A stretch of 64,000 nucleotides of DNA from a virus: positions 1 through 64,000 of IMG/VR virus record IMGVR_UViG_3300005613_000030; one strand, written 5' to 3'. A program made the translations under genes and the position numbers. The notes beneath the pieces were generated by a model that did not search any database, had not been told where the DNA came from, and saw nothing but the letters and a program-made list of their open reading frames with translations. This document shows positions 1 through 35,961 of this stretch, piece by piece; position 1 is the stretch's first letter; the number at the start of each line of letters is the position of its first letter.

Positions 1-258
1 TACATAACTATATATAAGCGAAGTGGAGATACATGCACTAAGCTAGCTGATCCAGCTACTTTGCCAGCTAGTACTAGTCATGATTGCGCTTTCAGTTCTG
101 ATGATACTTATTTAGCGGTTGCTCATAGTGGTGCCCCTTACATAACTATATATAAGCGAAGTGGAGACACATTCACTAAGTTAGCTAATCCAGCAACTTT
201 GCCAACATTCAATGGCAATGCTTGTGTATTCTCAAACACTGGTTTTCCACAATCTTAA
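1..258 (+). CDS. Beta-propeller tail-fibre protein, C-terminal fragment (5' end outside window)
   Basis: An open frame runs from the first base to a TAA at 256-258 and has no true start inside the window, so this is the 3' end of a larger gene. It encodes nearly two copies of the same 46-residue repeat found in the gene at 630-2444 (YITIYKR, GDTxTKLA, C-x-FSSDDTYLAVAH) and ends in almost the same tail (SNTGFPQS against SKTGFPQ). It is therefore a paralogue of that fibre. By inference it is a virion adhesin, or part of one, with a WD40-like propeller head. The DNA repeats are so similar to those at 1473-2441 that recombination between the two genes is plausible. Confidence 0.8.
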   Translation, partial: YITIYKRSGDTCTKLADPATLPASTSHDCAFSSDDTYLAVAHSGAPYITIYKRSGDTFTKLANPATLPTFNGNACVFSNTGFPQS

Positions 259-269
259 TAACTAAGCAA

Positions 270-298
270 CCTTAGGTGAGTTAATAACTCGCCTAAGG
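270..298 (+). terminator. Intergenic hairpin after propeller gene
   Basis: An 11-base inverted repeat, CCTTAGGTGAG and CTCGCCTAAGG with one G-T pair, encloses a 7-base AT-rich loop 11 bases after the stop codon. There is no T-run after it, so it may be a weak terminator or an mRNA 3' stabiliser rather than a classical intrinsic terminator. Confidence 0.45.
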
Positions 299-318
299 CA
301 CAATAACAGGATTATAAT

Positions 319-579
319 ATGAAACTACCAGATACACTGACTTTAGAGCAAGTTGAACAACTAAGGAAAATGTCAACTAAAACAAAAAGCTTTGACGATA
401 TGGTTAAAAAAGAAGATAAAGAAATTGACGTCGATAAAATTGTTAAAACACAAGTAAAGATAATTGATGGTAAAGAGGTATTTGTCCCTATAGAATCTGA
501 AGAAGAAAATCAAGAGGAAACTGAGACAGCGGAAGCAAAAGAAGACAACACTGAAGAAGCTCACAAAGAACAAGAATAA
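319..579 (+). CDS. Small acidic hypothetical protein
   Basis: An 86-residue protein with a short helical N-terminus and a C-terminal 30 residues made almost entirely of Glu, Asp, Thr and Ala. An AGGA sequence lies about 8 bases before the ATG. It sits between two propeller-fibre genes in the same orientation, so it may be expressed with them as an accessory or assembly factor. I recognise no family. Its acidic, probably disordered tail resembles those of small phage chaperone or linker proteins, but that is only an analogy. Confidence 0.6.
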   Translation: MKLPDTLTLEQVEQLRKMSTKTKSFDDMVKKEDKEIDVDKIVKTQVKIIDGKEVFVPIESEEENQEETETAEAKEDNTEEAHKEQE

Positions 580-629
580 CATTTTTAACGAAAGAAAATG
601 ATAAGATAGATATATTAATAGGAGGAGCA

Positions 630-2444
630 ATGGCAACTAGAACACATATAGCTAAGGTTACAGAAGGTGTAACTGAAAAAGCGGTACAAATGGTACCTTC
701 TGATCCTGGATCACCAGTTGATAGTCAAATTTGGATTAACACATCATCAAGAGAAATCAAGTACTTTGATGGAACAGTGGTACACAATTTAATTGAAAGT
801 GATGGATTAGAAAGGGTTGATCAACCTTTAGGTGTTTCGCCAATAGATGGAGCAACTGGAATTCAATTGTCAGCTACTCTAACTGCTTCTGATTTCATAC
901 CAGCTTATGATTTGAATACTCATGCCAGCTCAACTTGGGAAGTAAGAGATGCTGCTGACAATTTAGTGTTTTCAAGTATAGACGATGCTGCTAACTTAAC
1001 TAGCATATTAGCGACTGGCTTATTAGGTAACGTCACTTACAAATGGCGAGTTCAATATAAAGACATCAAAGGTTATACGAGTGCTTTTAGCGAGTATATT
1101 GAATTCAGTACAATACCTGTTTATATTGAAACTCCATCAATCACTTATCCAACTACTAGTCCAGATCTAACTGATGTTGACTTTGGAACTGATTTCACAA
1201 CTAGTACTTTCAATGTATTTGGTGCTAGTAATAATCACATCTCTACTCGCTGGCAAATAGCTCTAAGCTCAAATCCAACTTTCGATGTACTTGTATTTGA
1301 TAGTCTAGATGACCCTACTAACTTAGAGTCAATAACTCTAGATAGTGACGACTTTGAAGTGAGCACTGAATACATACTTAGAGTAAAACATACAGATAGT
1401 AACTATGGTGACTCAGCTTGGAGTGCAGTTAGAACTTTCACAACAGCTGCACAATTTGATATAGTACCGTTATTAGCAGTTGCTCACCAAAGTGCCCCTT
1501 ATATAACTGTCTATGATCAAGACATCGATACCTTTACTAAGCTAGCTGATCCAGCTAGTTTGCCAGCTAGTACTAGCTATAGCTGTTCTTTCAGTTCTGA
1601 TAACACTTATTTAGCAGTTGCTCATTTTACTTCCCCTTATATAACCATATATAAGCGAAATGGAGATACTTTTACTAAGTTAGCTAATCCAGCTAGTTTG
1701 CCACCTAGCCATGCATACGGTTGTAATTTCAGCTCTGACGGCACTTATTTAGCAGTTGCTCATAGTGGTGCCCCTTACATAACTATATATAAGCGAAGTG
1801 GAGATACATTCACTAAGCTAGCTGATCCAGCTACTTTGCCAGGTGGTATTGGCTTTAGTTGTGAGTTTAGCTCTGACGGCACTTATTTAGCAGTTACCCA
1901 TGATAATACCCCTAATATAACTATATATAAGCGAAGTGGAGATACCTTCACTAAGTTAGCTAATCCAGCTAGTTTGCCAAGTAACGATGGCTTTGGCTGT
2001 TCTTTCAGTTCTGATAATACTTATTTAGCAGTTGCTCACCAAAGTGCCCCTTACATAACTATATATAAGCGAAGTGGAGATACCTTCACTAAGTTAGCTA
2101 ATCCAGCTACTTTGCCAGCTAATACTAGTTATGATTGCGCTTTCAGTTCTGATGATACTTATTTAGCGGTTGCTCATAGTGGTGCCCCTTACATAACTAT
2201 ATATAAGCGAAGTGGAGACACATTCACTAAGCTAGCTGATCCAGCTGCTTTGCCAGCTGACAATAGTAATAGCTGTTCTTTCAGTTATGACGGGGTTTAT
2301 TTAGCAGTTGGACATGGAAATGCTCCTTACATAACTATATATAAGCGAAGTGGAGATACCTTCACTAAGTTAGCTAATCCAGCTACTTTGCCAGCTAATA
2401 CTAGTTATGATTGCGCTTTCTCAAAAACTGGTTTTCCACAATAA
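630..2444 (+). CDS. Tail-fibre/adhesin with FN3-like stalk and seven-repeat beta-propeller
   Basis: A 604-residue protein with an excellent SD (AGGAGG, 7 bases before ATG). Residues 1-70 form a domain shared with the gene at 2538 (THIAKVTEGVTE, AVQMV, DPGSP), probably the virion attachment part. Residues 75-280 contain two fibronectin-III-like modules (STWEVRDAADN, YKWRVQYKD, AWSAVRTFTT). Residues 282-604 are seven tandem 46-residue repeats with the core LAVAH-x3-PYITIYKR-x-GDTFTKLA-x-PA-x-LP and a variable loop before C-x-FS. Seven repeats equal one complete seven-bladed beta-propeller of WD40 type. The inferred role is host-surface recognition. The blades differ mainly in the LP-to-Cys loop. 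Confidence 0.75.
   Translation: MATRTHIAKVTEGVTEKAVQMVPSDPGSPVDSQIWINTSSREIKYFDGTVVHNLIESDGLERVDQPLGVSPIDGATGIQLSATLTASDFIPAYDLNTHASSTWEVRDAADNLVFSSIDDAANLTSILATGLLGNVTYKWRVQYKDIKGYTSAFSEYIEFSTIPVYIETPSITYPTTSPDLTDVDFGTDFTTSTFNVFGASNNHISTRWQIALSSNPTFDVLVFDSLDDPTNLESITLDSDDFEVSTEYILRVKHTDSNYGDSAWSAVRTFTTAAQFDIVPLLAVAHQSAPYITVYDQDIDTFTKLADPASLPASTSYSCSFSSDNTYLAVAHFTSPYITIYKRNGDTFTKLANPASLPPSHAYGCNFSSDGTYLAVAHSGAPYITIYKRSGDTFTKLADPATLPGGIGFSCEFSSDGTYLAVTHDNTPNITIYKRSGDTFTKLANPASLPSNDGFGCSFSSDNTYLAVAHQSAPYITIYKRSGDTFTKLANPATLPANTSYDCAFSSDDTYLAVAHSGAPYITIYKRSGDTFTKLADPAALPADNSNSCSFSYDGVYLAVGHGNAPYITIYKRSGDTFTKLANPATLPANTSYDCAFSKTGFPQ
1473..2441 (+). repeat. Seven tandem 138-bp coding repeats (propeller blades)
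   Basis: Seven units of 138 bp (46 codons) in perfect register, many nearly identical at the DNA level over 60-100 bases, with most change in a short segment after the codons for LP. Two more units lie at 1-258. The array encodes the propeller of the fibre gene. Its DNA identity makes unequal crossover or gene conversion likely. Confidence 0.9.
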
Positions 2445-2537: not shown

Positions 2538-4007
2538 ATGGCTAAGACGCATATAGCAAAAGTTACGGAAGGTGTAACTGAAAGAGCAGTGCAAATGGTA
2601 TCAGCTGATCCAGGGTCACCAATAACTAATCAACTTTGGGTTGATACAGCTAATAATATAGTTAAATATTTTGACGGTTCTGTTGTACAAGTATTAAGCC
2701 AAAGTGGTCAATTAGATAGAATTGAAGCACCAGTTGGGGTTTTCCCAACTGAAGGGTCAACTGAAGGTGGAACATCCATTGGTTTAATTTCTAGCACTTT
2801 TAATCCTGTATATCCATCATTTACTCATGCTAGCTCAACTTGGGAAGTAAGAGATGCTGCTGACAATTTAGTGTTTTCAAGTGTAAATGACGCAGCTAAC
2901 TTAACTAGTATCTCAGCTACTGGTTTAAGCGTAGGTGTTGCCTATAAATGGCGAGTACTATATAAAGATAGTGAAGGTTTTATAAGTGATTTTAGTCCTT
3001 ACGTTAATTTCACTACTAACACTATATACACTGAAACGCCAGTTGTTACTTATCCAACTACTAGTCCAGATCTAACTGATGTTGACTTTGGAACTGACTT
3101 CACAACTAACGCTTTTAACGTATTTGGTGCTAGTAATAATCACATCTCTACTGACTGGCAAATAGCTTTAAGCTCAGATCCAACTTTCTCTTCACCTATC
3201 TTTGAGAGCTTAGACGATGCTGTAAACTTAGAGTCAATAACTTTAGATAGTGACGACTTTGTAGTTAGCACTGAATATATACTTAGAGTAAGACATACAG
3301 ATAGTAACTACGGTGACTCAGCTTGGAGTGCAGTTAGAACTTTCACAACAGCCTCTGAATTCTTACCACCAGCAGAAGCTTTTTGGGATTTTACAGACGG
3401 TAATCTTTTAAATGATAGTTCAGCAAATAATTATATATTGACTAATAATAATCTTGTAACTACTGGAGCCGTAGGAGCAGTATTTAATGGATCAGGTGCT
3501 CTTGCAAGTGGACAACCTTACTTATCTGAAAATGCTGAATCTATTTTGAACAGCATCCCAATTGGATTTGCAGTGGAAGCGTATTTTAAAATTAATAGTG
3601 CACCTTCAGTTGAATTTAACTTAGTGCGACAAGACAATGATGCCTCTAATTCGTTTACTTTTTGGATTAGAAGTGGTTTAGATATTCGAACTCGATATAA
3701 ATACAACGGAACTGTTGAATCTTCAACAGGTACTTCTCAGCTATCTACAGGCGTGTGGTATCATGTGATTTATAGTTGGTTTGCTACTACAGGTCTTCAA
3801 ATATATTTAGATAATTCTCTAGAGATCAATGAGCCCACTAAAACTATTGTGATGGGAGGTGGCGGTAGCACGACGGAACCGTTTACTATTGGAGCTGGCT
3901 ATGGTGGTGCCTATGGTATGAATGGGGAGATAAAATATGTACGTGTGTATAAAACAGAATTATCTGCAGCTGATAGAACAGCGCTATATGACAACAGAAC
4001 GTATTAA
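2538..4007 (+). CDS. Tail-fibre/adhesin with FN3-like stalk and LamG-like lectin domain
   Basis: A 489-residue protein, SD AGGAG before ATG. Residues 1-70 match the N-terminus of the propeller fibre at 630, followed by the same two fibronectin-III-like modules (nearly identical stretches such as ASSTWEVRDAADN and SDDF-x-VSTEYILRV). The propeller is replaced by a domain of about 210 residues that looks like a laminin-G/concanavalin-A jelly roll: it starts AEAFWDFTDG, has GVWYHV and LQIYLDN in the middle, and ends EIKYVRVYKTELSAADRTALY, which is typical of LamG_3. The two genes therefore share a base and swap receptor-binding tips. A carbohydrate ligand is inferred. Confidence 0.75.
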   Translation: MAKTHIAKVTEGVTERAVQMVSADPGSPITNQLWVDTANNIVKYFDGSVVQVLSQSGQLDRIEAPVGVFPTEGSTEGGTSIGLISSTFNPVYPSFTHASSTWEVRDAADNLVFSSVNDAANLTSISATGLSVGVAYKWRVLYKDSEGFISDFSPYVNFTTNTIYTETPVVTYPTTSPDLTDVDFGTDFTTNAFNVFGASNNHISTDWQIALSSDPTFSSPIFESLDDAVNLESITLDSDDFVVSTEYILRVRHTDSNYGDSAWSAVRTFTTASEFLPPAEAFWDFTDGNLLNDSSANNYILTNNNLVTTGAVGAVFNGSGALASGQPYLSENAESILNSIPIGFAVEAYFKINSAPSVEFNLVRQDNDASNSFTFWIRSGLDIRTRYKYNGTVESSTGTSQLSTGVWYHVIYSWFATTGLQIYLDNSLEINEPTKTIVMGGGGSTTEPFTIGAGYGGAYGMNGEIKYVRVYKTELSAADRTALYDNRTY

Positions 4008-4073: not shown

Positions 4074-4565
4074 ATGATTTATGCAATAGTAAAAGACGGT
4101 CAACCAATCAAATTAGCAAGCCTAAGAAATAAAGTAGATGGAAAAGTTGGTTTTCATAAGATGACCGATGAGCAGCGTAAAGCTTTTGGTTGGTATCCAA
4201 CTAATATAATCTACGACGACTATAACCCTATGGTTCATCGACAGGTAGTTAATATGGTTTTAGATGAAGACCTTGAAGTAGTGAATGTTCACTATAGATC
4301 ATATGGTCTATCTCAATCTCAAATTAGAGAAAATAAGCTTCAAGCCGGTTTTGCCTTTGAATTTGATTCTAAAGAGTATCAGGTAAATTGCTCAGGCTCT
4401 GCTTTGTCAACATTGACAATTCATAAGCATCGAGTTATTGATGGAACAATTAATGTTAAATTAGATGGTCAATTTATTGAATTAAGTGAATCTCAATACA
4501 ACGATCTTCTGGCGCAGATAGCAGAATATGTTCAACAATGCTTTGATGAAGAACTCGCTGGATAA
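4074..4565 (+). CDS. Putative tail-fibre assembly/accessory protein
   Basis: A 163-residue protein. I chose the ATG at 4074 because AAAGGAG lies 7 bases upstream; an earlier in-frame ATG at 4041 has no SD. Residues near 30-45 read MTDEQRKAFGWYPTN, which resembles the EQ...GW-P pattern in small proteins encoded next to phage tail fibres (DUF4376-like and other fibre-associated proteins). The rest is mixed alpha/beta with a helical C-terminus. Its position directly after two fibre genes supports a role in fibre folding or attachment, but this is inferred from context and weak similarity. Confidence 0.5.
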   Translation: MIYAIVKDGQPIKLASLRNKVDGKVGFHKMTDEQRKAFGWYPTNIIYDDYNPMVHRQVVNMVLDEDLEVVNVHYRSYGLSQSQIRENKLQAGFAFEFDSKEYQVNCSGSALSTLTIHKHRVIDGTINVKLDGQFIELSESQYNDLLAQIAEYVQQCFDEELAG

Positions 4566-4640: not shown

Positions 4641-5435
4641 ATGACTAAATATTGGATTAACTATTCGCATGGAATGGAGTTGTCTCCAATTTCTACTGAA
4701 TATCAAGAACGCAGTGGCAATGAAAATGGTATTTTATTTTACCTTGTATACCTTGCAGTTCTCGATACACATGATATCTTAATGCCAGAAGATATTGAAG
4801 TATTTAAAAAGATCTGTATAGAATTACAAACTCACAACGATAATACACAAATAAAAGGTCTTTATGATCGTGGAGCACATGAATCTCACAATGATCATCC
4901 ATATTATAAATTACCAGAGAAACGTAGAAAGATTAGTCATGATAATATAACTGCTATATCTATTGGTAGTCGATATTTTAATTTACCATTTGCAAAACAT
5001 ATTGCACAATATGCTATAAACAATCAGTTTAAATTTGATAATAGATATCCTAACAATCAGCGCTTCATATTTAAGAATTCACAAGATAAATTAGACACGT
5101 CATTACAGCCTCATCCTAGAGATTGGTTTTTATGGCTTTTTAATGGTGGTGGATTTTATAGAGTACTAAGTTACATATTTTTCCCTGTATTCTTAATTGC
5201 TAATATTATGACATGCTATACACCTAAAGAAGAAACGTCAGGAAAACAACTCATGTTTGCTAGATTGGCTTTCGGTAGTAAAATATCATGGTTAATGAGG
5301 TTCAATTATTGGATATGTAAAAAAATATTAAGAAAAGCATATGGTAAGTATTTTATGTATGAGATTTTTAAAATTTATTATAAGAATGAAAATCATCCTA
5401 TTCGCACACTATCTAAAGGTTTGCTAATTAAATAA
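4641..5435 (+). CDS. Hypothetical protein with hydrophobic segment
   Basis: A 264-residue protein that I do not recognise. Residues 1-150 are polar and rich in His, Asn and Tyr. A hydrophobic stretch at about 176-192 (VLSYIFFPVFLIANIM) could be one membrane segment, and the C-terminal 60 residues are basic and aromatic. It follows a terminator and precedes a convergent minus-strand gene, so it is either the last gene of the adhesion block or an independently expressed one. A weak AAGGTG element lies 7 bases before the ATG. Confidence 0.55.
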   Translation: MTKYWINYSHGMELSPISTEYQERSGNENGILFYLVYLAVLDTHDILMPEDIEVFKKICIELQTHNDNTQIKGLYDRGAHESHNDHPYYKLPEKRRKISHDNITAISIGSRYFNLPFAKHIAQYAINNQFKFDNRYPNNQRFIFKNSQDKLDTSLQPHPRDWFLWLFNGGGFYRVLSYIFFPVFLIANIMTCYTPKEETSGKQLMFARLAFGSKISWLMRFNYWICKKILRKAYGKYFMYEIFKIYYKNENHPIRTLSKGLLIK

Positions 5436-5473: not shown

Positions 5474-5842
5474 TTATATTCCAAAAATTTCATCCATTAA
5501 CAGGTCACCGACATCAAATGCTTCTTGTTTTCCATCAGGAAAAGATATGACTACACTTTGAACTCTAACTGATTTCCAATCAACGTCATCTTCTTGTGTA
5601 TTCCAGATTGCATTGCAACTAATTCCTGGTGTAATATGTCTTAAGCGAGAATATAATAATCTATATTCTTTCTTAAAGCGGTGCTTCAGATCATTGGCAT
5701 CTGTAGCTTCAGCATAATGCTTATCCATATTGCGGAAAAATTGTTTTGCTTCTTGAGAATAATCGAAATCTCGAGAAGTACGATCTTTGATCGATTTAAT
5801 CTTATTGGCTTTTTTATTTATCATGTCCCATATATCTGTCAT
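5474..5842 (-). CDS. Hypothetical protein of replication cluster, probably leaderless
   Basis: A 122-residue protein with a charged helical N-terminal half and a C-terminal half that looks like a small alpha/beta fold (SVRVQSVVISFPDG). No family recognised. I chose the ATG at 5842 (MTDIWDM) over one five codons upstream because TATAAT lies exactly six bases before it, the same geometry as seven other starts in this window, and there is no SD. It lies 16 bases after the primase stop and appears to have its own promoter. A role in replication is inferred only from the neighbours. Confidence 0.6.
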   Translation of the reverse strand: MTDIWDMINKKANKIKSIKDRTSRDFDYSQEAKQFFRNMDKHYAEATDANDLKHRFKKEYRLLYSRLRHITPGISCNAIWNTQEDDVDWKSVRVQSVVISFPDGKQEAFDVGDLLMDEIFGI

Positions 5843-5854
5843 AATATGATTATA
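5843..5854 (-). promoter_or_regulatory. TATAAT-N6-ATG promoter (leaderless type)
   Basis: On the minus strand TATAAT (5854-5849) is followed by six bases and then the ATG at 5842. Transcription would be expected to begin at or next to the A of ATG. No clear -35 box. Confidence 0.55.
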
Positions 5855-5858
5855 CAAA

Positions 5859-6737
5859 TTATTTATTTTCTATGTAGACGGGTTTGATTCTTTGAAGGAA
5901 GTATTTGGTGAATTCTTTTTGGCCAAGTCTCTGTAATTCGTCGTTCCAATCTGAGGCAGTGTCCGTGAGACAAAAATGAGTAAGACAATCAAACTCTGTA
6001 TATTTCTTTAATGCTTTTAATCCTGCTTCGTCTCTATCAGTTGCACAAATAATTTTATAACCATTGTCTTTTAATTCTTTAAGAACTTCGCGTTGATGAA
6101 GACTAGCACCAGAGCCGCTAGCAGCAATTGCCTTAAAGGGATTTTGAACTGCACTACCATATACGGCATTCAATGATTGTTGAATACTAGCTGCATTAAA
6201 AGCGCCTTCGCATACTACGATTGATTTCACATTAGGCATGATATTTTCTTGATTGTAATTCCAAAATAAAAGCCCACTGCGAGTGCCGGGAATCGTACTT
6301 ATTTTTGTAGTATCTCCATCTTTATTGACCCACGGCTTTAATAACCTAATCTGAGCACCAACGAATACACTTCCAAAATACAATGGAAACACTATGCCTT
6401 CATATTCCATATCATAATAAAAATCACCTTGACCCGTTAACCCTCTTGACTTTAGATATTGTAAAGCCTTTTTAGCGCGTGGATCACTCAGTGGAATAAA
6501 CTTATCTGGCCATTCCATTTTCTGTACTTCATTAGGTGTTGCTTCTTGAAAATCAAAATCACCGTTCAAAAATTCGCTTAGACTGATACCCGCTTGATAG
6601 CAATAATTATAAATTGAATAACCACGCTGACAACGCCCATTGCACCAAACCCAGATAGCACCACTATCTGGGTCAATATGCCAATGTAGCGTTGAATTTT
6701 TTCTTTGACATATAAGGCATTTTTTAGTATCAATCAT
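5859..6737 (-). CDS. DNA primase, zinc-finger + TOPRIM (T7 gp4 primase-like)
   Basis: A 292-residue protein. The N-terminus carries a zinc-binding set (C-L-I-C at 8-11, HWH, WCNGRC) like the template-recognition finger of DnaG and T7 primases. The central region has TOPRIM motifs: a Glu in VVCEGAFNAAS, and DRDEAG for the metal-binding D-x-D. It should make RNA primers for the lagging strand. It lies immediately downstream of the DnaB-like helicase gene with a 1-base TAATG overlap and a strong GAGGAGGAG SD, so the two are translationally coupled. It resembles the primase half of T7 gp4 carried as a separate gene. Confidence 0.8.
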   Translation of the reverse strand: MIDTKKCLICQRKNSTLHWHIDPDSGAIWVWCNGRCQRGYSIYNYCYQAGISLSEFLNGDFDFQEATPNEVQKMEWPDKFIPLSDPRAKKALQYLKSRGLTGQGDFYYDMEYEGIVFPLYFGSVFVGAQIRLLKPWVNKDGDTTKISTIPGTRSGLLFWNYNQENIMPNVKSIVVCEGAFNAASIQQSLNAVYGSAVQNPFKAIAASGSGASLHQREVLKELKDNGYKIICATDRDEAGLKALKKYTEFDCLTHFCLTDTASDWNDELQRLGQKEFTKYFLQRIKPVYIENK

Positions 6738-7756
6738 TACTCCTCCTCTTTTGAAGGTGTAACGGGCTTAACTTCTACTTGTTCTGCTAACTTATCAATT
6801 TGTCCTTGTTTGACCTTACTTTTAAATTTATCATCATATGGAACAAACTTACCTTCTTCAAATCCACATTCTAATTTATAACCCTGTAAACCAAAGCGAT
6901 CTTTTTTGATAATGAAATCAGTTTTCTTCATTTCAAAATGTGGCACAATCTCTATAACAACTGTTGCTGCTTCAATTATAGCTGGACATTCCTTTATACG
7001 GCTATCTAGTTCCACGTTATTTCGTTTACCCATAGAATGTAATTGAGCAAACAATACGATCGGAATATTAGATGCTTTTATATATCGCTGCATATAAATA
7101 CGCAACTGATTCAATGCGTCGTATCTGGCCATATCTGGTCGTTTAGTACTGTTTATTATTAATTGATAATAATCTATCAAACAACACGCATAATCTTCCT
7201 TCTGGACAGCTTTAAGCGCATTAATAACGCCCTCTAATCTTGTGGTTAATCCATCTTTATAATTAACATCAAACACATGGATATATTTAGAGATATCTGG
7301 TAAAATACGAGCACACTGCTGCTGTTTAGCTTGAACCATTCGTCCTTTTTTATATTCATTAAAACTATAACCATAGTGTAAACAAGCAATACGAAATAAT
7401 ACATCAGATCTCGATTCTTCATTCGCAATAACTAAAACTTTTTTACCTTCTTGCCATAATGGATATGAAATATTTGCTGCGATGGTTGATTTACCGTTAC
7501 CTGTATATGCACACATAAGATACAGGTTCTCTCTCGTGAACGGTATCACCTTCGACATCGCAGGATTTATAAAGGTTATCTTCTCTTTAAGCATTCGGTT
7601 ATATTGCTTAATATCATCGAATACGCCCTTAAGAGATTCTTTACTATTTAATTCATCAATATCACCTAATGACACAGATATATCAATCTCTTCTTCTAGT
7701 GGTTTACCACCTTTAGTGAGGATAGCATCTCGCAGTTCTTTATCTAGTTCAGCCAT
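6737..7756 (-). CDS. DnaB-like replicative helicase (RecA-fold core only)
   Basis: A 339-residue protein from the ATG at 7756, chosen because GGGGAGGA lies 9 bases upstream; a TTG 18 bases earlier has no SD. It has Walker A TGNGKST (85-91), an ANEES segment, Walker B CCLIDYYQ, and IPIVLFAQLHS like the DnaB motif with a terminal Gln/His. The family usually has about 450-470 residues with an N-terminal helical domain; here that domain is nearly absent, so this is essentially the motor domain, as in T7-type helicases. Together with the coupled primase it forms a split gp4-like module. The inferred role is unwinding at the replication fork. Confidence 0.8.
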   Translation of the reverse strand: MAELDKELRDAILTKGGKPLEEEIDISVSLGDIDELNSKESLKGVFDDIKQYNRMLKEKITFINPAMSKVIPFTRENLYLMCAYTGNGKSTIAANISYPLWQEGKKVLVIANEESRSDVLFRIACLHYGYSFNEYKKGRMVQAKQQQCARILPDISKYIHVFDVNYKDGLTTRLEGVINALKAVQKEDYACCLIDYYQLIINSTKRPDMARYDALNQLRIYMQRYIKASNIPIVLFAQLHSMGKRNNVELDSRIKECPAIIEAATVVIEIVPHFEMKKTDFIIKKDRFGLQGYKLECGFEEGKFVPYDDKFKSKVKQGQIDKLAEQVEVKPVTPSKEEE

Positions 7757-8493: not shown

Positions 8494-8561
8494 CGATATT
8501 GTAAAAAATCTATGTGTGTTTGTATTATATCTTGGTTGTACTGAAATGCGTCGATGTTAAG

Positions 8562-8573
8562 TATAATCATACT
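8562..8573 (+). promoter_or_regulatory. TATAAT-N6-ATG promoter (leaderless type)
   Basis: TATAAT at 8562-8567, preceded by AAG, then six bases to the ATG at 8574. No SD for the gene and no clear -35. Confidence 0.6.
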
Positions 8574-11042
8574 ATGAAAGCAATAATCACCAATAAATTT
8601 ATTCTACTAAGAAATCCCACATTAGTCGTAAAGCGATCTCTCAAAGAATTATTATCTTATAAAGATAAGTCAAAAGCTTATCAATTACGACGAATGGCTA
8701 ATAATCCTTTTTTAAAGAGATCACCACAATATAAAAAATTACAACAAGAAGCAGAAGGTTGTCTACTTAAAGAACTGCCAAATGGAGATTTAGTTTTTTC
8801 TTCTGGATTTGTACATTATATACAATCTGCAAATATTGAAATCGAAGATCGACGAATTCAAACCGGGAAAACTATTCCATTGCCGTGGAAAAAACGAACT
8901 TTTGATCCATACCCGTATCAACGTGAAGCAGTTGACGCAATGAAAAATAATTATCGTGGAATTATTAATTTAGCAACTGGATTAGGTAAAAGTTTAATTG
9001 CTCTATATGCAACTCAAGAAATTAAAAAAAGAACATTGATCATAGTTCCTGGCGAATCAATTGCTAAACAGTTCTTAGAAGCTATGCAAGCTGCTTTTGG
9101 AGACAATAAAGTTGCTTTATATGGTGGCGGTAAGAAAAAAACAGCTGATATAACAATCGGTATTGGCGCATCCGTTGTTAGGAACATTAATACATTTAAA
9201 AAGCTAGATTTGGGATTAATAGTGGTGGATGAATGCTTTCCATATCGGCAGAATATAGCTACAATTGATGGACCAATGGAGATAGGTAAATTAGTAGGTA
9301 TGTGGGAACAAAATAAAACAATACCACTGGTTAAATCCTTTAATGAAAAAACCAAATCATTCGAATATAAAGCAGTTACCCATGCATGGCGAAAAACAAA
9401 TAACAATCTCATACGTATTAAAATGGGCAAACGCTCTATGTCATGCACTAGCAATCATAAAATGCTAACAGTCAATGGCTGGAAAAAAGCAAGTGAACTA
9501 GTTACAGGGGAATTGCTAGTTGCTAATCCTGATCTATCTAAAAAAGAACAACACGTTGCAAGAAGCTTGAATAATGATCAATACCAAATTTTATTGGGAT
9601 CTTTTTTGGGTGATGGAAACATAAACACTGTTAAAAGTGGACGACATAGATTGCGTGTTATCCATGGAGCACCTCAACGCGAATATTGTCAATGGAAAGC
9701 AAATATGTTTCATGTGGAATGTAAAAAAATATCTAATAATGGATACAGTAAAAAAGATGCTTATCGTTTTTCTACAAAGATAATAGATATACCAAATTCT
9801 ATACCAACTACAAAAACAACCTGTCCACAGTGGGTTATTGACGACTTAGATGCTAGAGGATTAGCAATCTGGTTTATGGATGATGGAACTATTAGTCAAT
9901 TAGGTAACGCTGCAGAAATAGCAACATGCTCTTTTGACCACAACACACAATTAAAACTAGTGAGTAAGTTGAATAAAATGGGAATTGATAGTAAACCAAA
10001 ATTTATAAAATACAATGATCATAGAGCACCTGGATACTGGGTAATTAAAATAAATAAAGTAGGATGCCATAAATTGAAACAGCTTATATTACCCTTTATT
10101 CATTCTAGTTTAACGTATAAAGTCAATAACATGCCAAATTATACACCTTACAACTGGGATAATACTTTTTTAGATTCTGGGACTATTCCAATTACAGAGA
10201 TATCCTATATAAAAAACAAACAAACTCGTACTCCATACGTTTTTGATATCGAAGTAGCTGATAATCATAATTTTGTAGTCTGCTCGTCAAGTGGAACTGC
10301 AGGACCAGTAGCTCATAATTGCCATCATATTCCAGCCGATACGTTCTATGAGATAGCTAATCAATTAGGTGATGTCGAAAAGATATTTGGATTATCAGCT
10401 ACTGGATATCGTTCAGATGGTAAAGATATTCTTATTTCTGCAGCTTGCGGTGATACCCTAATTAAGCGTGATATTAAGTGGGGTGTTAAAAATAAATTCT
10501 TAGCTAAACCAAATTTCATAATAAAAGAAGTAGATACAAATGGTGGAGATTTCAGAGATAATAAGCTGAAAAACTATAAAGCCAATGTATTACATGATGA
10601 TGCAATGAATAAACAAATCTTAGAAGATATTCAAACTAATTTAGCTAATGGTGAAGTTGTAATGTGTTTAGTATCAGAAGTAGCGCACGGTAAAGCATTA
10701 TCTACTGCATTAGGTTGTCCATTTGCACAAGGTAATGATAAGATGTCACAATCATATGTAAATGATTTAAATAGCAATAAAATCAAGTGTTTAGTAGCAA
10801 CCTCTGGAAAATTAGGCGAAGGTTCTGATACTAAACCAATTACAGTACTTATTCTGGCAAATTTTATTGCCTCAAAAGGTCCTGTTATTCAAGCTGTAGG
10901 TAGAGGTCTTAGAATTGCCAACGGGAAAACAACATGTACTATCATTGATTACATCCCAAATGGCTCTAAGATGCTAACTAGACACGCTAAACAAAGAATC
11001 AGTTATTATAAAGAAATAACTGACGATATTGAGATTGTGTAA
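8574..11042 (+). CDS. SF2 DNA helicase (UvsW-like) interrupted by an intein
   Basis: An 822-residue precursor; removing the intein (residues 221-582) leaves a 460-residue SF2 helicase. Motifs are Q-like PYQREAV, Walker A ATGLGKS (134-140), Walker B VVDE split by the intein and completed by CHH to give DECHH, motif III SATGYR, and motif VI QAVGRGLR. The order and size resemble T4 UvsW, which remodels recombination and fork intermediates. The ATG at 8574 is preferred over an upstream alternative start because it has the TATAAT-N6-ATG arrangement. Activity should depend on protein splicing, since the Walker B box is broken in the precursor. Confidence 0.85.
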   Translation: MKAIITNKFILLRNPTLVVKRSLKELLSYKDKSKAYQLRRMANNPFLKRSPQYKKLQQEAEGCLLKELPNGDLVFSSGFVHYIQSANIEIEDRRIQTGKTIPLPWKKRTFDPYPYQREAVDAMKNNYRGIINLATGLGKSLIALYATQEIKKRTLIIVPGESIAKQFLEAMQAAFGDNKVALYGGGKKKTADITIGIGASVVRNINTFKKLDLGLIVVDECFPYRQNIATIDGPMEIGKLVGMWEQNKTIPLVKSFNEKTKSFEYKAVTHAWRKTNNNLIRIKMGKRSMSCTSNHKMLTVNGWKKASELVTGELLVANPDLSKKEQHVARSLNNDQYQILLGSFLGDGNINTVKSGRHRLRVIHGAPQREYCQWKANMFHVECKKISNNGYSKKDAYRFSTKIIDIPNSIPTTKTTCPQWVIDDLDARGLAIWFMDDGTISQLGNAAEIATCSFDHNTQLKLVSKLNKMGIDSKPKFIKYNDHRAPGYWVIKINKVGCHKLKQLILPFIHSSLTYKVNNMPNYTPYNWDNTFLDSGTIPITEISYIKNKQTRTPYVFDIEVADNHNFVVCSSSGTAGPVAHNCHHIPADTFYEIANQLGDVEKIFGLSATGYRSDGKDILISAACGDTLIKRDIKWGVKNKFLAKPNFIIKEVDTNGGDFRDNKLKNYKANVLHDDAMNKQILEDIQTNLANGEVVMCLVSEVAHGKALSTALGCPFAQGNDKMSQSYVNDLNSNKIKCLVATSGKLGEGSDTKPITVLILANFIASKGPVIQAVGRGLRIANGKTTCTIIDYIPNGSKMLTRHAKQRISYYKEITDDIEIV
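9234..10319 (+). mobile_element. Intein with LAGLIDADG homing endonuclease, inserted in helicase motif II
   Basis: 362 residues in frame. It begins with Cys (CFPYRQ, block A), has block B with CTSNHKML, and ends FDIEVADNHNFVV ... AHN followed by Cys of the extein (blocks F and G), so all splicing residues (Cys1, His, His-Asn, Cys+1) are present. Two LAGLIDADG-type motifs, LLGSFLGDGN and LAIWFMDDGT, indicate a full homing endonuclease. The exteins join as VVDE-CHH. Both the splicing and the nuclease domains look intact. Confidence 0.92.
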
Positions 11043-12681: not shown

Positions 12682-13398
12682 ATGGATAATCTATCTAGTA
12701 TTTTTAACACTAATGTTCGGATTAATTCCAATGACGTTAATGATCCACTGCATAAAGATGCAGTTTGGCCTAATTCTATTGAGATATGTATAGCTCGAGT
12801 TCCTATTAGACGTAGAGATGGTTATAGTGTTGAGAATATTAGAAAAATTGCAAAGCAATTAAAAAATAATATGGTCACCAATGGAATTGTATTCTTAATA
12901 TGCTATGCACCAGTTGAATGTAAATCTCGCCCATTTGAAATTGCTAAGGTTATGACTGAAGAAAAATTTACACATATTGATAATATAGTTATAGAAAGAT
13001 CTTGGTTACCTGGTAAAAGATCTGAAGTTAATTTAGTCAATTCACACGAATATGTTTTACATTTCTGCAATGGCAATGTATGGAACTTAGATAGATTACC
13101 TATTAAAGAGTACTTAAGAGCTGCCGATAGTATTTCATGTGTCGGTAATACTTGGAAAGTTGAAACTGGTAGTTTAGATGAGTCATATCCAATTGATCTA
13201 GCCGAATTATTAATCAGAATGACAGATGCTCTTCCGGGTAGTATAATATTTGATCCGTGGATGGGAGCTCAATCAGGTTTATTAGCTGCTTTAAAATTAG
13301 GACATAGTTTCTGGGGTTTTGAAAAAAGTGCCAGAAAGCTTAAAAAATATCAAAAAATTATTAATACTTTTGAACATAATTACAAACAACGAGATTAA
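12682..13398 (+). CDS. Degenerate DNA methyltransferase (beta-class N4/N6 fold)
   Basis: A 238-residue protein arranged like beta-class adenine/cytosine-N4 methyltransferases: a catalytic half first, then SAM-binding motif I FDPWMGAQSG (D191 onward) and FWGFE near the end, with HEYVLHF in between as in RsrI-type enzymes. At the position of the catalytic (S/T/D)PPY motif the sequence reads IARVPI (residues 37-42), so the key residues are missing, and motif I lacks the usual GSGTT. It may bind DNA or SAM without methylating, or use an altered active site. The nearby HNH gene was probably inserted between it and the chaperonin gene. Confidence 0.6.
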   Translation: MDNLSSIFNTNVRINSNDVNDPLHKDAVWPNSIEICIARVPIRRRDGYSVENIRKIAKQLKNNMVTNGIVFLICYAPVECKSRPFEIAKVMTEEKFTHIDNIVIERSWLPGKRSEVNLVNSHEYVLHFCNGNVWNLDRLPIKEYLRAADSISCVGNTWKVETGSLDESYPIDLAELLIRMTDALPGSIIFDPWMGAQSGLLAALKLGHSFWGFEKSARKLKKYQKIINTFEHNYKQRD

Positions 13399-13402
13399 AT
13401 AC

Positions 13403-14161
13403 GTGATTGATAGAAAAGATTATCATGTGATTACGTTAAAAAATGGTAAGCATCGTACTACATATCGATATTATTGCGATAGTTGTAGTGCAGATAGAGG
13501 CTATCACCTTATGGATAGTAGAAAAAGTAAGCAATTATGTAAAACTTGTTCATACGCTGTTCGCAGTCAAAGAATAATACAAAGTAATAAAGAACCGCAT
13601 GATGGTTCGTGGATATGGCAGTATCGATCTAGTGGAAAAAGATATAAGAAGTTTATAGCGACCTGTAGTTCCTGTGGCAAAGATAGAGGATATCAATGCA
13701 AAAAAGATTCTTATAGATTATGTGGTGATTGCAGTTTACAAAAAAATACAGGTATGTGGAGTAAAGGTCACGTGCCATGGAATAAAGGTAAAAAATTAAG
13801 TAAAGAGTATAGTATTAAAAATAGTTGTGCACAGCGTCAAATAGAGATTAAAGATTTTGATTGCTTTACTACTCACAAGAATGATAAAGATCGCTCTATT
13901 TTAAAAAAGAGCAATCTTCATATTGAATGTTTTAAAAAAGCGGATTACACATGTCAAGTATGCAGTACTAAAGGCGTAACATTGAATGCTCACCATTTAA
14001 ATAACTTTGCACAATATGAAGATCAACGTTTTATTCTGGAGAATTTAGTATGTCTTTGCAAACAATGCCATAAAAAAATACATAAAGAATACGGGAATTC
14101 AACGACAAGATATAACTTTGAAGAGTATAGGAGAAAATATGAGTATCTACGAAAAAAGTAA
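13403..14161 (+). CDS. HNH homing endonuclease with NUMOD3-like motif
   Basis: 252 residues from a GTG at 13403, the first reasonable start after the methyltransferase stop; the SD is weak. The N-terminal part has three zinc-ribbon-like modules (CDSCSADRGY, CSSCGKDRGY, CGDC), then WNKGKKLSKEY (NUMOD3-like DNA-binding motif), and a C-terminal HNH unit (C-QVC, LNAHHLNNF, LVCLCKQCHKKIHKEYG). It should cut one or both strands at a specific site to drive its own spread. It overlaps the chaperonin start by 23 bases and carries that gene's SD, so it is tucked in without breaking its neighbour. It is related to the gene at 49533. Confidence 0.8.
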   Translation: MIDRKDYHVITLKNGKHRTTYRYYCDSCSADRGYHLMDSRKSKQLCKTCSYAVRSQRIIQSNKEPHDGSWIWQYRSSGKRYKKFIATCSSCGKDRGYQCKKDSYRLCGDCSLQKNTGMWSKGHVPWNKGKKLSKEYSIKNSCAQRQIEIKDFDCFTTHKNDKDRSILKKSNLHIECFKKADYTCQVCSTKGVTLNAHHLNNFAQYEDQRFILENLVCLCKQCHKKIHKEYGNSTTRYNFEEYRRKYEYLRKK

Positions 14162-15818
14162 AGCAAAAGATATTATTGCAGATAAAGATGAAATTGATAA
14201 AATAGTATCTGAAACAATGGATAATATGGCTGCTATTATTGGTCGAACTCTCGGTCCCGGAGGTAATCCTGTTTTAATTGAACGTGATTCTCAAGCGCCT
14301 TTGATTACAAAAGACGGAGTAACAGTTGCTAGATCTTTAGGTGTACATGACGCAGCATCACATGTGATTGTGGAATCCGCTAAAGAAATCTGCTTAAATA
14401 CAGCGAAAGATGCTGGAGATGGAACCACCACTGCTATTGTTCTTGCCAACGCTTTAGTTAAGGCTGGTAGGAAATTTTTAACAGATAATCCAAAATATAA
14501 TCCACAAAGAGTTGTTCAAGAATTACAACAGATGTACGACACAGTTATTATTCCTTTTTTAAAAGCGGAAGCAATTGATGCAGATACCGAAGCAAAATTA
14601 CTACATGTAGCTGAAATTTCCGCCAATGGGGATTCAAGCATAGCAAAAGTTGCTGTTGAAGCGGTATTGACTGCAGGGGAAGATGGTACAGTTCTATTAG
14701 AAGAAGCTCAAGGTAATGATATGAGAGTAGAGACTATTGAGGGATATGTCATTACAAACGGCTTAAAAGAGTTTGGACAAATTGGTCCTGTATTTGTGAA
14801 TGATAACGCTAATCAGCAATGCAAAATGGATCAAGGGTATGTGTTCCTATATGATGGCAGTATTACTGACTTAAAAGCATTAGGTTTAGTGCAGCAAGCA
14901 ATTGAAGGGACAGAATTATATGGTTCACCGATTATAGTTATGGCTCATGAATTTTCTGATAGTGTAATGGATAAAATTGCTCAAGCCATTAAAGGTGGAA
15001 TTACAATTTGTCCAGTTAAAACACCACGCTCTGGTGTACCGAATTCTAGATCTATGTTTCTTAAAGATATGTCTGCTTACACTGGAGCTCGTGTATTTGA
15101 TCCAGGTGATATTGCTGAAATTGAGCCAGAGCATTTTGGTGCATTTCAATCAGCTAAAAGTAACATGTATGAAACCTTCATATTGTCAATACCTGATACA
15201 GAAGCTATTGATGTGAGAGTTGAAGAGCTTAAAGGGTTAGCAGAGACATGTCATTCTGATTTTGATAAGATGTTTATAAAAGCAGCTATCGGTAAATTAA
15301 TTGGTGGAATTTCTACCATTTGGGTTGGTGGTGCTTCAGATCTTGAAGTTAGAGAGAAAAAAGCAAGAGTAGAAGATGCAGTAGAAGCTGTTAGATCAGC
15401 GATTGCTGAAGGTATTGTCCCTGGAGGTTGCTTTATACACCAGAAATTAGCGAATCAATTATGCGATAACAAAGATAGTAAGAAGTCGTGGAGTATTATG
15501 GTATCTGCATTGCAGGTTCCACTGAATCTATTGCTAACTAATTGTGGCGAGGATCCTAAAGAAATTAGAGCAGGGTTGAAGCGAAATAAGAATAAAATAT
15601 TTGATGCTAATAAACATGCTTTTGTTGATCCACATAAAGCTGGAATAATTGAACCAACTAAAGTTATTCGTGTTTCTTTAGCTAATGCGTTATCTGTGGC
15701 TAGTTTACTGATTAGTCTTGGCGGTGTTGTATGTGTTCCTCGTGATTCTGGTTTAGAAAATCAATTAGCTTTATCTAAACAGGCTTTTAAAGATATGATG
15801 AGTGATATGCCGAGATAA
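14139..15818 (+). CDS. groEL: GroEL-like chaperonin
   Basis: 559 residues from the ATG at 14139 (SD AGGAGA, 8 bases upstream). It is a full-length group I chaperonin: RTLGPGGNPVLIERD and ITKDGVTVAR, nucleotide-binding AGDGTTTA near residue 92, and the equatorial DAVEAVRSAIAEGIVPGG near residue 425. The C-terminal GGM tail of bacterial GroEL is absent. It should fold phage proteins in an ATP-driven ring, probably capsid or fibre subunits. No groES homologue is visible nearby, so it may use the host co-chaperonin or none, as reported for some large-phage chaperonins. Confidence 0.92.
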   Translation: MSIYEKSKAKDIIADKDEIDKIVSETMDNMAAIIGRTLGPGGNPVLIERDSQAPLITKDGVTVARSLGVHDAASHVIVESAKEICLNTAKDAGDGTTTAIVLANALVKAGRKFLTDNPKYNPQRVVQELQQMYDTVIIPFLKAEAIDADTEAKLLHVAEISANGDSSIAKVAVEAVLTAGEDGTVLLEEAQGNDMRVETIEGYVITNGLKEFGQIGPVFVNDNANQQCKMDQGYVFLYDGSITDLKALGLVQQAIEGTELYGSPIIVMAHEFSDSVMDKIAQAIKGGITICPVKTPRSGVPNSRSMFLKDMSAYTGARVFDPGDIAEIEPEHFGAFQSAKSNMYETFILSIPDTEAIDVRVEELKGLAETCHSDFDKMFIKAAIGKLIGGISTIWVGGASDLEVREKKARVEDAVEAVRSAIAEGIVPGGCFIHQKLANQLCDNKDSKKSWSIMVSALQVPLNLLLTNCGEDPKEIRAGLKRNKNKIFDANKHAFVDPHKAGIIEPTKVIRVSLANALSVASLLISLGGVVCVPRDSGLENQLALSKQAFKDMMSDMPR

Positions 15819-15822
15819 TAGT

Positions 15823-16380
15823 ATGATAAAAGAATGTAGTAAATGTAAAAATCACAAGGATGTGATTCTCTTTAACAAGAATAAGAAAAACACTACAACT
15901 GGTCGATCATCATGGTGTAAAGCGTGTATTAAAAAACACGATGCTAGTAAGAATTATAAACCTATTTATCGTGGCACAAAGATATGTCAAACATGCAAGA
16001 TAACTAAAAAAGCCACTGAATTCCATGTAAATAAAAAACATAAAGATGGATTAGAGCGACGATGTAAAAAATGCAATATGTTGCGAAAAGACAATAATCA
16101 TTATAGAAATAAATATGGTATAACATTAGATGACTATAACAACTTAATTAAAAGTCAGAATTATCAGTGTGCTATATGTAAAACGGTAGATCCAGGTGTT
16201 GGAATTAATCGTTTTCACGTTGATCATAATCATTCCACTGGTGTAGTTAGAGGATTATTATGTTCGAATTGTAATCGAGCATTAGGTCAATTTAAAGATG
16301 ATATATCGATTCTTGAATCAGCAGCGGAATACATAAGAAATAACTTGGAGACAAAACATGATTTCAACGATCCTAAATAA
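15823..16380 (+). CDS. Recombination endonuclease VII-like HNH nuclease
   Basis: 185 residues from the ATG at 15823. The N-terminus has two C-x2-C ... C-x2-C zinc modules (CSKCK...CKAC, CQTCK...CKKC). The C-terminal half matches Endonuclease VII-type HNH domains: YGITLDDYNNLIKSQ, CAICK, FHVDHNHSTGVVRGLLC, CNRALG, DDISILESAAEYI. T4 gp49 of this family resolves branched DNA, but stand-alone copies with extra zinc modules are often homing-type genes. It sits right after the chaperonin and overlaps the next gene by 23 bases with that gene's SD inside, as the other homing genes here do. A RuvC-like resolvase also exists at 20793. Confidence 0.8.
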   Translation: MIKECSKCKNHKDVILFNKNKKNTTTGRSSWCKACIKKHDASKNYKPIYRGTKICQTCKITKKATEFHVNKKHKDGLERRCKKCNMLRKDNNHYRNKYGITLDDYNNLIKSQNYQCAICKTVDPGVGINRFHVDHNHSTGVVRGLLCSNCNRALGQFKDDISILESAAEYIRNNLETKHDFNDPK

Positions 16381-30213: not shown

Positions 30214-30530
30214 TATGCAATAGAATCTGTGGAATATTATGTATACTACTAGTGATAGCTGCTTGCACATATGTGTTTATTAAAGGGCCTTCTATATATG
30301 ATAAAGAAACTGTATTCTCTTATGGTCAGAAAGTTAAAGTGATAAAAGGATTTTATAAAGGTTATAACTGTTTCACTGTTCAGCATCAATACACTGATAT
30401 ACGCATATTTACTACTGATAGATATTATTATGCCCTATCAAGCAAAGATAAGAATCTCAATATGATAATGGTATATGGCGATGAATTAGAATTAGAGGTT
30501 GATGGAGAACAATGTGATGCAATACAATAA
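30210..30530 (+). CDS. Small membrane-anchored hypothetical protein
   Basis: 106 residues starting in an ATGA overlap. The N-terminal segment 5-25 (ICGILCILLVIAACTYVFI) is a membrane anchor or signal, possibly a lipobox (IAAC). The remainder is a small beta domain (GQKVKVIKGFYKGYN, KOW-like in pattern). With the two genes before it, it forms a three-gene envelope cluster inside the recombination operon. The following HNH gene overlaps its end by 14 bases. Confidence 0.55.
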   Translation: MICNRICGILCILLVIAACTYVFIKGPSIYDKETVFSYGQKVKVIKGFYKGYNCFTVQHQYTDIRIFTTDRYYYALSSKDKNLNMIMVYGDELELEVDGEQCDAIQ

Positions 30531-31656
30531 GCAATGCATTATTTGTAATAAAGATTTTGTATCGATGAGACGACATGCAAAAACATGCTCAAATATGTGT
30601 CGCAGTAGAGTTCATTCGAAGAAACATCGTAATAAGGTTATCATTAAATTGTGTGGTTATTGTAAAATAGAATTTTCATGCGGTGGACAGACACATGCTA
30701 AAAAATACTGTTCTAAGAAGTGTAGAGATTCTAATAGATATATAGTCGATAAAAATAATCTTCATGAGCAGTTAAAGAAAACAATTAGATGTCGAGTAAA
30801 TGACGCATTAACTGATCGAGCAACTAGTTACTCTGTGGTTAAAAATCTAGGTTGCTCTATTAAGGAATTAAGGACGTATTTAGAATCTAAATTTACAGAA
30901 GGTATGACTTGGGATAATCGGGGATATTACGGCTGGCATATAGATCACATTAAGCCACTAAGTAGTTTTGATTTAACTAACCCTGAAGAGCTTAAGAAAG
31001 CATGCCATTATACCAACTTACAACCATTATGGGCAGAAGATAATTTAAAGAAAGGAAGTCAATGTGAAAGGCAATGCACCAATTGTAAGCAATCTTTTTA
31101 TAGTAAGCAATATAATAAAAAATTTTGTTCTACAGAATGTCAAAAACGCCATTGGAATCTTAACAACAAAGAGCACAAATTAACTCTACAAAGAGAGTGG
31201 AGAAGAAACAACCCAGATAAGGTGTTAAAAGATAGTCAAAGTTTAGGGCACAGTAAAGCAGTTAATAAATGGAAAAATAAAAACATAGAAAAGGTAAGAC
31301 ATTATAATAATGAGTTTCATAAACGGCATCGACAAGAATCACCACAATATCGTATAGCTTGTAATATTAGGAGTCGTGTATCTAAGGTGCTACAAAAGAA
31401 TATAAAAACAGGCTCAGCGATAAGAGATTTAGGCTGCTCTATCTCAGACTTAAAGAAGCATCTAGAATCTCAGTTTACAGAAGGTATGTCCTGGGATAAC
31501 TACGGCTCACATGGTTGGCATATAGATCATGTCAAACCGTTAAGCAGATTCAATTTAAATAATAAAGAACAATTTAAAGAAGCTTGTCATTATAGTAACT
31601 TACAACCATTATGGGCAGAAGATAATTTAAGTAAAGGGGCAAAATATGACGAATAA
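30517..31656 (+). CDS. Double HNH homing endonuclease (two tandem zinc/HNH units)
   Basis: 379 residues from the ATG at 30517 (GGAG upstream). It contains two complete units, each with N-terminal Cys pairs (CIICNKDF...CSNMC; CTNCKQSF...CSTEC), then LGCSI, ESKFTEGM-x-WDN, GWHIDHIKPLS and ACHY-x-NLQPLWAEDNL-x-KG. The second unit begins near residue 185 and repeats the first. Single-unit paralogues occur at 35951, 38604 and 44641. The gene sits between the envelope cluster and uvsX, overlapping uvsX by 11 bases and supplying its SD (AAAGGGG). Confidence 0.85.
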   Translation: MQYNKQCIICNKDFVSMRRHAKTCSNMCRSRVHSKKHRNKVIIKLCGYCKIEFSCGGQTHAKKYCSKKCRDSNRYIVDKNNLHEQLKKTIRCRVNDALTDRATSYSVVKNLGCSIKELRTYLESKFTEGMTWDNRGYYGWHIDHIKPLSSFDLTNPEELKKACHYTNLQPLWAEDNLKKGSQCERQCTNCKQSFYSKQYNKKFCSTECQKRHWNLNNKEHKLTLQREWRRNNPDKVLKDSQSLGHSKAVNKWKNKNIEKVRHYNNEFHKRHRQESPQYRIACNIRSRVSKVLQKNIKTGSAIRDLGCSISDLKKHLESQFTEGMSWDNYGSHGWHIDHVKPLSRFNLNNKEQFKEACHYSNLQPLWAEDNLSKGAKYDE

Positions 31657-35350: not shown

Positions 35351-35961
35351 TGGCACTAAAGAAAAAATTCACAGATGAGGAAATAGTTGGATTGACTCAA
35401 GAAGAAATTAAATTAGGGTTAAAGTACTTGAGAAAACATAAAACAGCAGGTGCGGTTCCTGATGTAGAAGCGCTTAAACTATACGAAATGTATCTTATCG
35501 GCTGTACATTTACCGAGATTAGTAAGCAATACCCACAATATGAGTTAGGACAGATTATATTAACTGCTGCAATTCGAAAATGGGGTATGGATCGTGATCG
35601 TATGCAATGTACTTTAAAAGATAGGGTACAGGCTAAAGTTGTTAAATCCGTAATTGAGCAAGTAGACTTTTTAACATCTATGTTAAGTGTCAGCTCTGCT
35701 GAACATATTGAAGCAATGCGAAATTACATAATCAACCCGGATAAGTATCCTAAACCTGATATGAGAATAGCATCAATTAAAGAGTACAAAGATGTAACTG
35801 AAACTTTATATAAAATTGTGTCAGGAGCAACTAGTAATTCTAAGTCTTCACCCATGTTTGGTGCATTAGGTTCAAAGCAACCACAACAAAAAAAGATAGA
35901 AGAAAAGAAAAAAGACTATGATATAGATTTAGATGATATAGAGATCGACAGTGATAAATAA
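35350..35961 (+). CDS. Terminase small subunit (putative)
   Basis: A 203-residue protein with an HTH-like segment near residues 53-85 (GCTFTEISKQYPQYELGQIILTA), a helical oligomerisation-type middle and an acidic C-terminus (DYDIDLDDIEIDSDK). This is the usual form of phage small terminases, which recognise DNA and stimulate the large subunit. Only an HNH gene separates it from the large subunit at 36654, which is strong positional support. The HNH GTG start overlaps its end by 11 bases. Confidence 0.6.
   Translation: MALKKKFTDEEIVGLTQEEIKLGLKYLRKHKTAGAVPDVEALKLYEMYLIGCTFTEISKQYPQYELGQIILTAAIRKWGMDRDRMQCTLKDRVQAKVVKSVIEQVDFLTSMLSVSSAEHIEAMRNYIINPDKYPKPDMRIASIKEYKDVTETLYKIVSGATSNSKSSPMFGALGSKQPQQKKIEEKKKDYDIDLDDIEIDSDK

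Follow-up and report, generated by a model that had tools for sequence, protein, structure and literature searches.

Organisation of the fibre locus

The window analysed here covers positions 1-64000 of a virus record 86,607 bp long, window base 1 being record base 1, and a fibre locus lies at its left end, with the following features, all on the + strand.

1..258 (+), last ~1.8 blades (3' end) of the upstream propeller gene, frame open from base 1, start beyond the contig
319..579 (+), charged ORF of 86 aa that separates the propeller genes; AGGA as ribosome-binding-like site
630..2444 (+), complete gene for a propeller fibre of 604 aa, with AGGAGG ahead of it; modelled with AlphaFold2 (AF2)
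630..1457 (+), residues 1-276, the anchor plus stalk, in part Ig/FnIII-like, a module common to gene 2538-4007 and contig L006
1473..2441 (+), predicted seven-bladed propeller head (repeats; 28 strands at pLDDT ~96; Foldseek 1ri6, TMt 0.80)
1473-1610, 1611-1748, 1749-1886, 1887-2024, 2025-2162, 2163-2300 and 2301-2438 (+), the seven blades
2049..2144 (+), 96-bp tract that recurs exactly at 2325-2420, two blades on
2131..2231 (+), 101-bp tract identical to 80-180 of the upstream gene, a candidate for recombination or gene conversion
2538..4007 (+), paralogous fibre with a LamG_3 (concanavalin A-like) C-terminal head (Pfam Laminin_G_3, E=5e-16)
4074..4565 (+), gene possibly of the tail-fibre assembly or chaperone type (matches phrog_10508 tail fiber protein at E=9e-5 and DUF4376 at E=1e-3, the latter under the Pfam cut-off)
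4641..5435 (+), conserved neighbouring gene that served in the synteny comparison with the relative G001, 50% identical to L114:1927-2682

The locus holds at least three fibres, the upstream propeller gene being partial. A preliminary description of this DNA had spoken of paired fibres and of an upstream gene ending in like repeats; the latter is borne out by the partial gene 1-258, whose protein is 82% identical to the main array of 630-2444, and both propeller genes are present, but only one is complete, the other is cut by the contig end, and the 86-aa ORF stands between them. Sequence searches with this ORF (319-579) gave no relatives, and the rest of the upstream gene, sought by exact pattern and by searches with its 86-aa neighbour, was not found. 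The third fibre at 2538-4007, with the common stalk and a lectin-like head, had been overlooked. It is 69% identical to 630-2444 over residues 3-276, the shared anchor and stalk, and the identity of this module across copies (630-2444 against 2538-4007 and L006) is 69-71%; Ig_Rha78A_N matches the stalk of 630-2444 weakly, under the Pfam cut-off. On sequence comparison, gene 2538-4007 and the propeller fibre are a head-swap pair, in which a lectin-like and a propeller head are predicted on the same anchor and stalk.

Away from the fibre locus, the window encodes a second repeat protein at 51568-52224, built of about seven 84-bp repeats (GPAYISYYKNGQVKCEQWRVNDQLHRVD), and 24-bp tandem repeats coding EEEAAMQG lie at 59588-59714 in a gene without assigned function. 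Free-standing HNH-type endonuclease-like ORFs occur at 13319-14161, 15802-16380, 30499-31656, 35951-36646, 38604-39125, 41375-42115, 44641-45183 and 49533-50291, most of them carrying a HIDHIKPL..NLQPLWA motif and one of them two copies of it, and GIY-YIG-like ORFs are located at 21358 and 50364. A helicase-like gene (8514-11042) has an apparent in-frame intein interruption, and 14118-15818 codes for a phage-encoded chaperonin (GroEL/cpn60)-like protein.

The repeat array and its predicted fold

Seven tandem 46-aa (138-bp) repeats occupy 1473-2438 within gene 630-2444, as had been described, running from residue 282 to the end of the 604-aa protein; the reading frame is unbroken through all blades, and Tandem Repeats Finder scores above 1000 exclude a chance origin of the repeats. 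Blade-to-blade identity is 67-85% in DNA (median 77%) and 61-83% in protein (median 70%), values that do not match the near-identical DNA of the preliminary description, a wording that suits only single exact tracts (101 bp and 96 bp). The blade columns P9, P31, Y14, D19 and Y46 are close to invariant, among the turns it is those of the bottom face (KRxGD, FSPDG) that are conserved, and the conserved residues are identical in kind across all blades of the ring.

AF2 was run with 15 relatives. Residues 281-600 were modelled at pLDDT ~96; their 28 strands fall into an initial set of three, six sets of four and a single last strand. The anchor and stalk (residues 1-278) were modelled with low confidence. 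The Foldseek matches of the head are closed seven-bladed lactonase/WD40 rings (1ri6, TMt 0.80, and also 3fgb), together with a protein of Pseudomonas phage POR1 (TMt 0.87), and the family profile A2, compared with solved structures, finds WRAP 2YMU as its best PDB match (E=3.7e-40). In the closing blade of 630-2444 the C-terminus supplies the inner strand a, and the N-terminal end supplies strands b-c-d; in most relatives closure is classical, with the outer strand from the N-terminus, so that both registers exist in the family. A relative of the classical register, also modelled with AF2, likewise gave a seven-bladed ring, which matches WRAP structures. The window protein scores 18.3 bits against the Pfam WD40 repeat PF00400, below the cut-off of 27 which several relatives exceed, and lies above the cut-offs of PF10282 Lactonase (40.3 vs 21.7) and PF23389 (53.3 vs 27). 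The prediction, with seven closed four-stranded blades, agrees with a WD40-class seven-bladed beta-propeller and supports a closed WD40/lactonase-type head of 7x4 strands. The preliminary description, which had proposed structure prediction as a check, had counted exactly one WD40-type ring; the 28 modelled strands, the seven-bladed Foldseek matches and the seven blades of most complete relatives agree with it.

Relatives, blade counts and genomic slot

About 45 relatives of the propeller occur in viral and bacterial contigs (19 viral, 27 bacterial), several of them in prophage tail-fibre slots, relatives are also present in about a dozen phage records, and phrog_19311 and uncultured Caudovirales 'WD40/YVTN repeat-like' proteins are relatives in both sequence and fold. 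Most complete arrays have seven blades, including those of isolates of Sporomusa, Merdimmobilis, Pseudomonas and Chloroploca. The podovirus L143 has fourteen, the array of a Paenibacillus chromosome (L140) is split across two frames, and the clear counts of 2, 3, 5 and 6, all in metagenome contigs, may be collapsed assemblies; propeller arrays of this type assemble poorly from short reads (PMC12222747). Among 43 close relatives picked by capsid the propeller was found in none; nine match the N-terminal module only, eight of these over just its first ~46 residues.

In L013, L015, L014, L020, L008 and L022 the ring lies between short N- and C-terminal beta elements, as if inserted in a small barrel, the C-terminus being GYAKESGVAGE..KKIV-like. 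Two Chloroploca contigs (L132/L133, ~5800-7060) carry a chromosomal seven-blade copy with a signal peptide in a housekeeping gene context, which is a non-phage use of the same propeller and not a fibre.

The 166.6-kb relative G001, with a capsid protein 84% identical and four neighbouring genes collinear with the window, has in its fibre slot an unrelated 1913-aa fibre flanked by weak PHROGs baseplate and tail matches; Pfam annotation of its fibre-slot genes returned nothing, and a propeller of the 630-2444 family is absent from it. The gene order in the Sporomusa prophage L117 is gp25, gpJ, tail fibre, propeller, endolysin, with genes of the baseplate wedge and the tail fibre ahead of the propeller; the propeller follows baseplate J-type and I-type genes in L013 and L016, and the N-terminus of L023 resembles, by eye, tail protein I. 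The propeller is therefore found in the tail-fibre slot, after baseplate genes, in L117, L013 and L016, and the synteny with G001 places it there in the window too, where the baseplate genes themselves are off the contig and the fibre assignment combines synteny with the shared stalk. In a third virus, L006:8001-9095 joins the N-terminal module (71%) to a different, possibly propeller-like repeat head that reaches the contig edge. The best reading is that the propeller is an exchangeable putative receptor-binding head.

Variation on one face

Columns 6-7 (b-c loop) and columns 32-37 and 39 (d-a loop, the LP...C-x-F stretch) vary between the blades of one protein. In the propeller topology the b-c and d-a loops share one face. 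This arrangement has been described (PMC1805685), and we assigned the face of the variable loops by strand topology. The preliminary description had located the variation between LP and C-x-FS, towards one side of the ring; that loop is variable, but not alone, the b-c loop varying too, and the one-sidedness is recovered throughout. In every one of the proteins compared (23/23, p=2e-7) the loop columns are more variable than the other columns, loop diversity thus being present in relatives, and the column variability profiles of viral and bacterial arrays are correlated (r=0.88).

Over all arrays pN/pS is 0.88 (CI 0.75-1.06) in the top loops, 0.31 in the bottom loops and 0.28 in the rest, with pS equal across regions, which argues against targeted mutation. 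Six columns picked in 21 arrays gave, in 7 less-diverged held-out arrays, a dN/dS of 2.47, above 1 in 7/7, and the same six columns gave 2.01 in the window array. Computed over all arrays, on blade pairs which are not independent, dN/dS is 0.90 (0.69-1.13) for the top loops and 1.56 (1.11-2.14) for columns 6-7, so that values clearly above 1 are confined to the less-diverged arrays or to columns 6-7. The top-face loops look as if they were under diversifying selection rather than targeted mutation, for which this is good, not final, evidence.

Apparent exchange of blades between arrays

Recombination between the arrays had been suggested beforehand and agrees with the exact tracts and with a loss of blade correspondence among relatives. 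The 101-bp tract shared by the upstream gene (80-180) and 630-2444 (2131-2231) is longer than the overall identity of the two window genes would predict (run test, 0/20000 site shuffles and 0.00015 for codon shuffles). Between proteins, blades of the same index are no more alike in DNA than blades of different index (0.606 vs 0.608). In L013 and L015 the flanks are 97% and 92% identical and the arrays 83%, without a blade-by-blade diagonal; a comparison of repeat number and order, also proposed earlier, yields mostly seven blades in relatives and an order that is not conserved between these two. The secreted-type chromosomal copy of two Chloroploca species retains the blade diagonal at 0.98-1.00, and the stability of this array indicates that blade turnover is not universal.

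A diversity-generating retroelement was considered as the origin of the variation and rejected: a reverse transcriptase (RVT_1) was not found in the 86.6-kb record, a genome which is probably incomplete, and synonymous divergence is equal in loops and framework.

Discussion

We consider it likely that 630-2444 encodes a tail fibre and putative receptor-binding protein, in which an attachment module and an Ig/FnIII-like stalk are followed by a closed WD40-class head of seven blades, diversified on one face. The N-terminal module would attach the protein to the virion, the stalk would carry the propeller head, and the variable face formed by the b-c and d-a loops would contact the host receptor. 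The conserved framework and the DNA similarity of the blades may permit their exchange or conversion within and between arrays, with selection holding the blade count at seven, we propose because a single chain with any other count would fail to close.

The loops could instead drift under relaxed constraint alone, in a ring that binds via its central channel or bottom face or is structural. A top-loop pN/pS whose interval over all arrays (0.88, 0.75-1.06) is compatible with neutrality would fit such drift, as would the near-invariant P9, P31, Y14, D19 and Y46 and the conserved bottom-face turns; we nevertheless find it unlikely, given the dN/dS of 2.47 at held-out columns in the less-diverged arrays (above 1 in 7/7), the value above 1 for columns 6-7 over all arrays (1.56, 1.11-2.14), and a like pattern that marks the predicted binding face of fungal HNWD propellers (PMC1805685). 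That the head is an enzyme, a lactonase or a glycan-degrading propeller and not a pure adhesin, is suggested by its top full-ring structural matches, which are 6-phosphogluconolactonase-type proteins, and by the Pfam Lactonase score over its cut-off. This is very improbable in our opinion: the same conserved residues recur in all blades, which leaves no symmetry-breaking active site, variability is highest at the residues of the predicted ligand face, and propellers of the same family are found as heads, inserts and fusions.

The clear tail-fibre slots of L117, L013 and L016, the tail protein I-like N-terminus of L023 (by eye) and the synteny of the window with a fibre slot beside baseplate-like genes make it improbable that the propeller is a head decoration or another virion protein, an assignment to which one might be led by the rings inserted between small beta elements in L013, L015, L014 and L020, and by a jumbo-phage copy (L009) that adjoins a 'virion structural protein' gene. 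We see a similarly small chance that the array length and the upstream 'pair' are artefacts of assembly, arising from short-read collapse or chimerism at the repeats. The contig end does fall inside repeats, assembling such arrays from short reads is unreliable (PMC12222747), and it is in metagenome contigs that the clear odd counts (2, 3, 5, 6) occur; yet the isolates (Sporomusa, Merdimmobilis, Cohnella, Pseudomonas, Paenibacillus, Chloroploca) have mostly seven blades or are consistent with seven, the exact tracts are at most 101 bp, below common read length, and the frame is intact across all blades.

Beyond the assignment of 630-2444 as a tail fibre, phages, prophages and some bacteria might share a blade-swapping adhesin repertoire of paralogous seven-blade rings, a tentative extension to which we give a little less than even chances. 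Blades would be exchanged or converted, their number fixed at seven, and a few top-face codons of each blade diversified. If true, this repertoire would represent host-recognition variation free of reverse transcriptase and convergent with fungal allorecognition receptors, and phages would vary receptor binding by shuffling propeller blades, in place of retroelement mutagenesis or the swapping of whole domains. One face of each ring would then present seven semi-independent contact sites, and the sequencing of arrays would give a direct readout of recognition evolution.

Comparison with known systems

Propeller domains at the host-facing end of the virion are found in other phage receptor-binding proteins or candidates, namely phi11 Gp45 (five blades), PRD1 P2 and PhiKZ gp131C (seven blades, 4GBF), the role of the last being that of a candidate (PMC4901313). 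They differ from 630-2444 in that tandem similar blades are not part of their description (PMC4901313), and none of them is among the structural or sequence matches listed for the propeller head. WD40 propellers have also been predicted in tail-fibre or receptor-binding protein genes, as putative fibres of the C. difficile phages PhiMMP03 and CDKM15 and in the diffocin RBP, with no report of repeat similarity or diversification in the part of that source available to us (PMC13324602); they were not detected as relatives of the propeller by tblastn. The earlier judgement that such a ring is unusual for a phage adhesin is in consequence only partly right, phage propeller receptor-binding proteins or candidates being known (PMC4901313) and WD40 folds predicted for C. 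difficile phages (PMC13324602). In the open-licence literature we found no report of the combination of blade similarity, exchange and selected loop pairs in a phage adhesin, which is not proof of novelty.

Both the propeller fold and the mode of diversification are already known, from WRAP and from the fungal HNWD receptors. The fold and its habit of amplifying similar blades have been described (PMC9218822, PMC6805158), and the array shares with the highly repetitive propellers of Pereira & Lupas a homology at the level of blades only, a median blade number of seven and an internal identity of ~70%, above their threshold of 60%. The fungal HNWD proteins HET-D and HET-E likewise have WD40 repeats of high internal identity, exchange between paralogues and positively selected codon pairs in the d-a loop and b-c turn of the top face (PMC1805685, PMC2873952). 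This pattern of selected b-c/d-a pairs and array exchange is found here as well, read with the non-independence of the blade pairs and the all-array loop dN/dS of 0.90. HET-D and HET-E differ in being cellular NLR allorecognition receptors with 10-12 repeats (PMC1805685, PMC2873952, PMC12222747), and the propeller fibre, from which a NACHT/NLR domain is absent, is not an HNWD member; the resemblance is one of evolutionary mode, and we claim no homology past the fold. WRAP belongs to the same fold class and is the closest solved structure by profile (2YMU, E=3.7e-40). It forms the C-terminal portion of a cellular STAND ATPase and has 14 blades that are almost identical, whereas in 630-2444 a phage fibre would carry just one ring, with the variation concentrated on one face.
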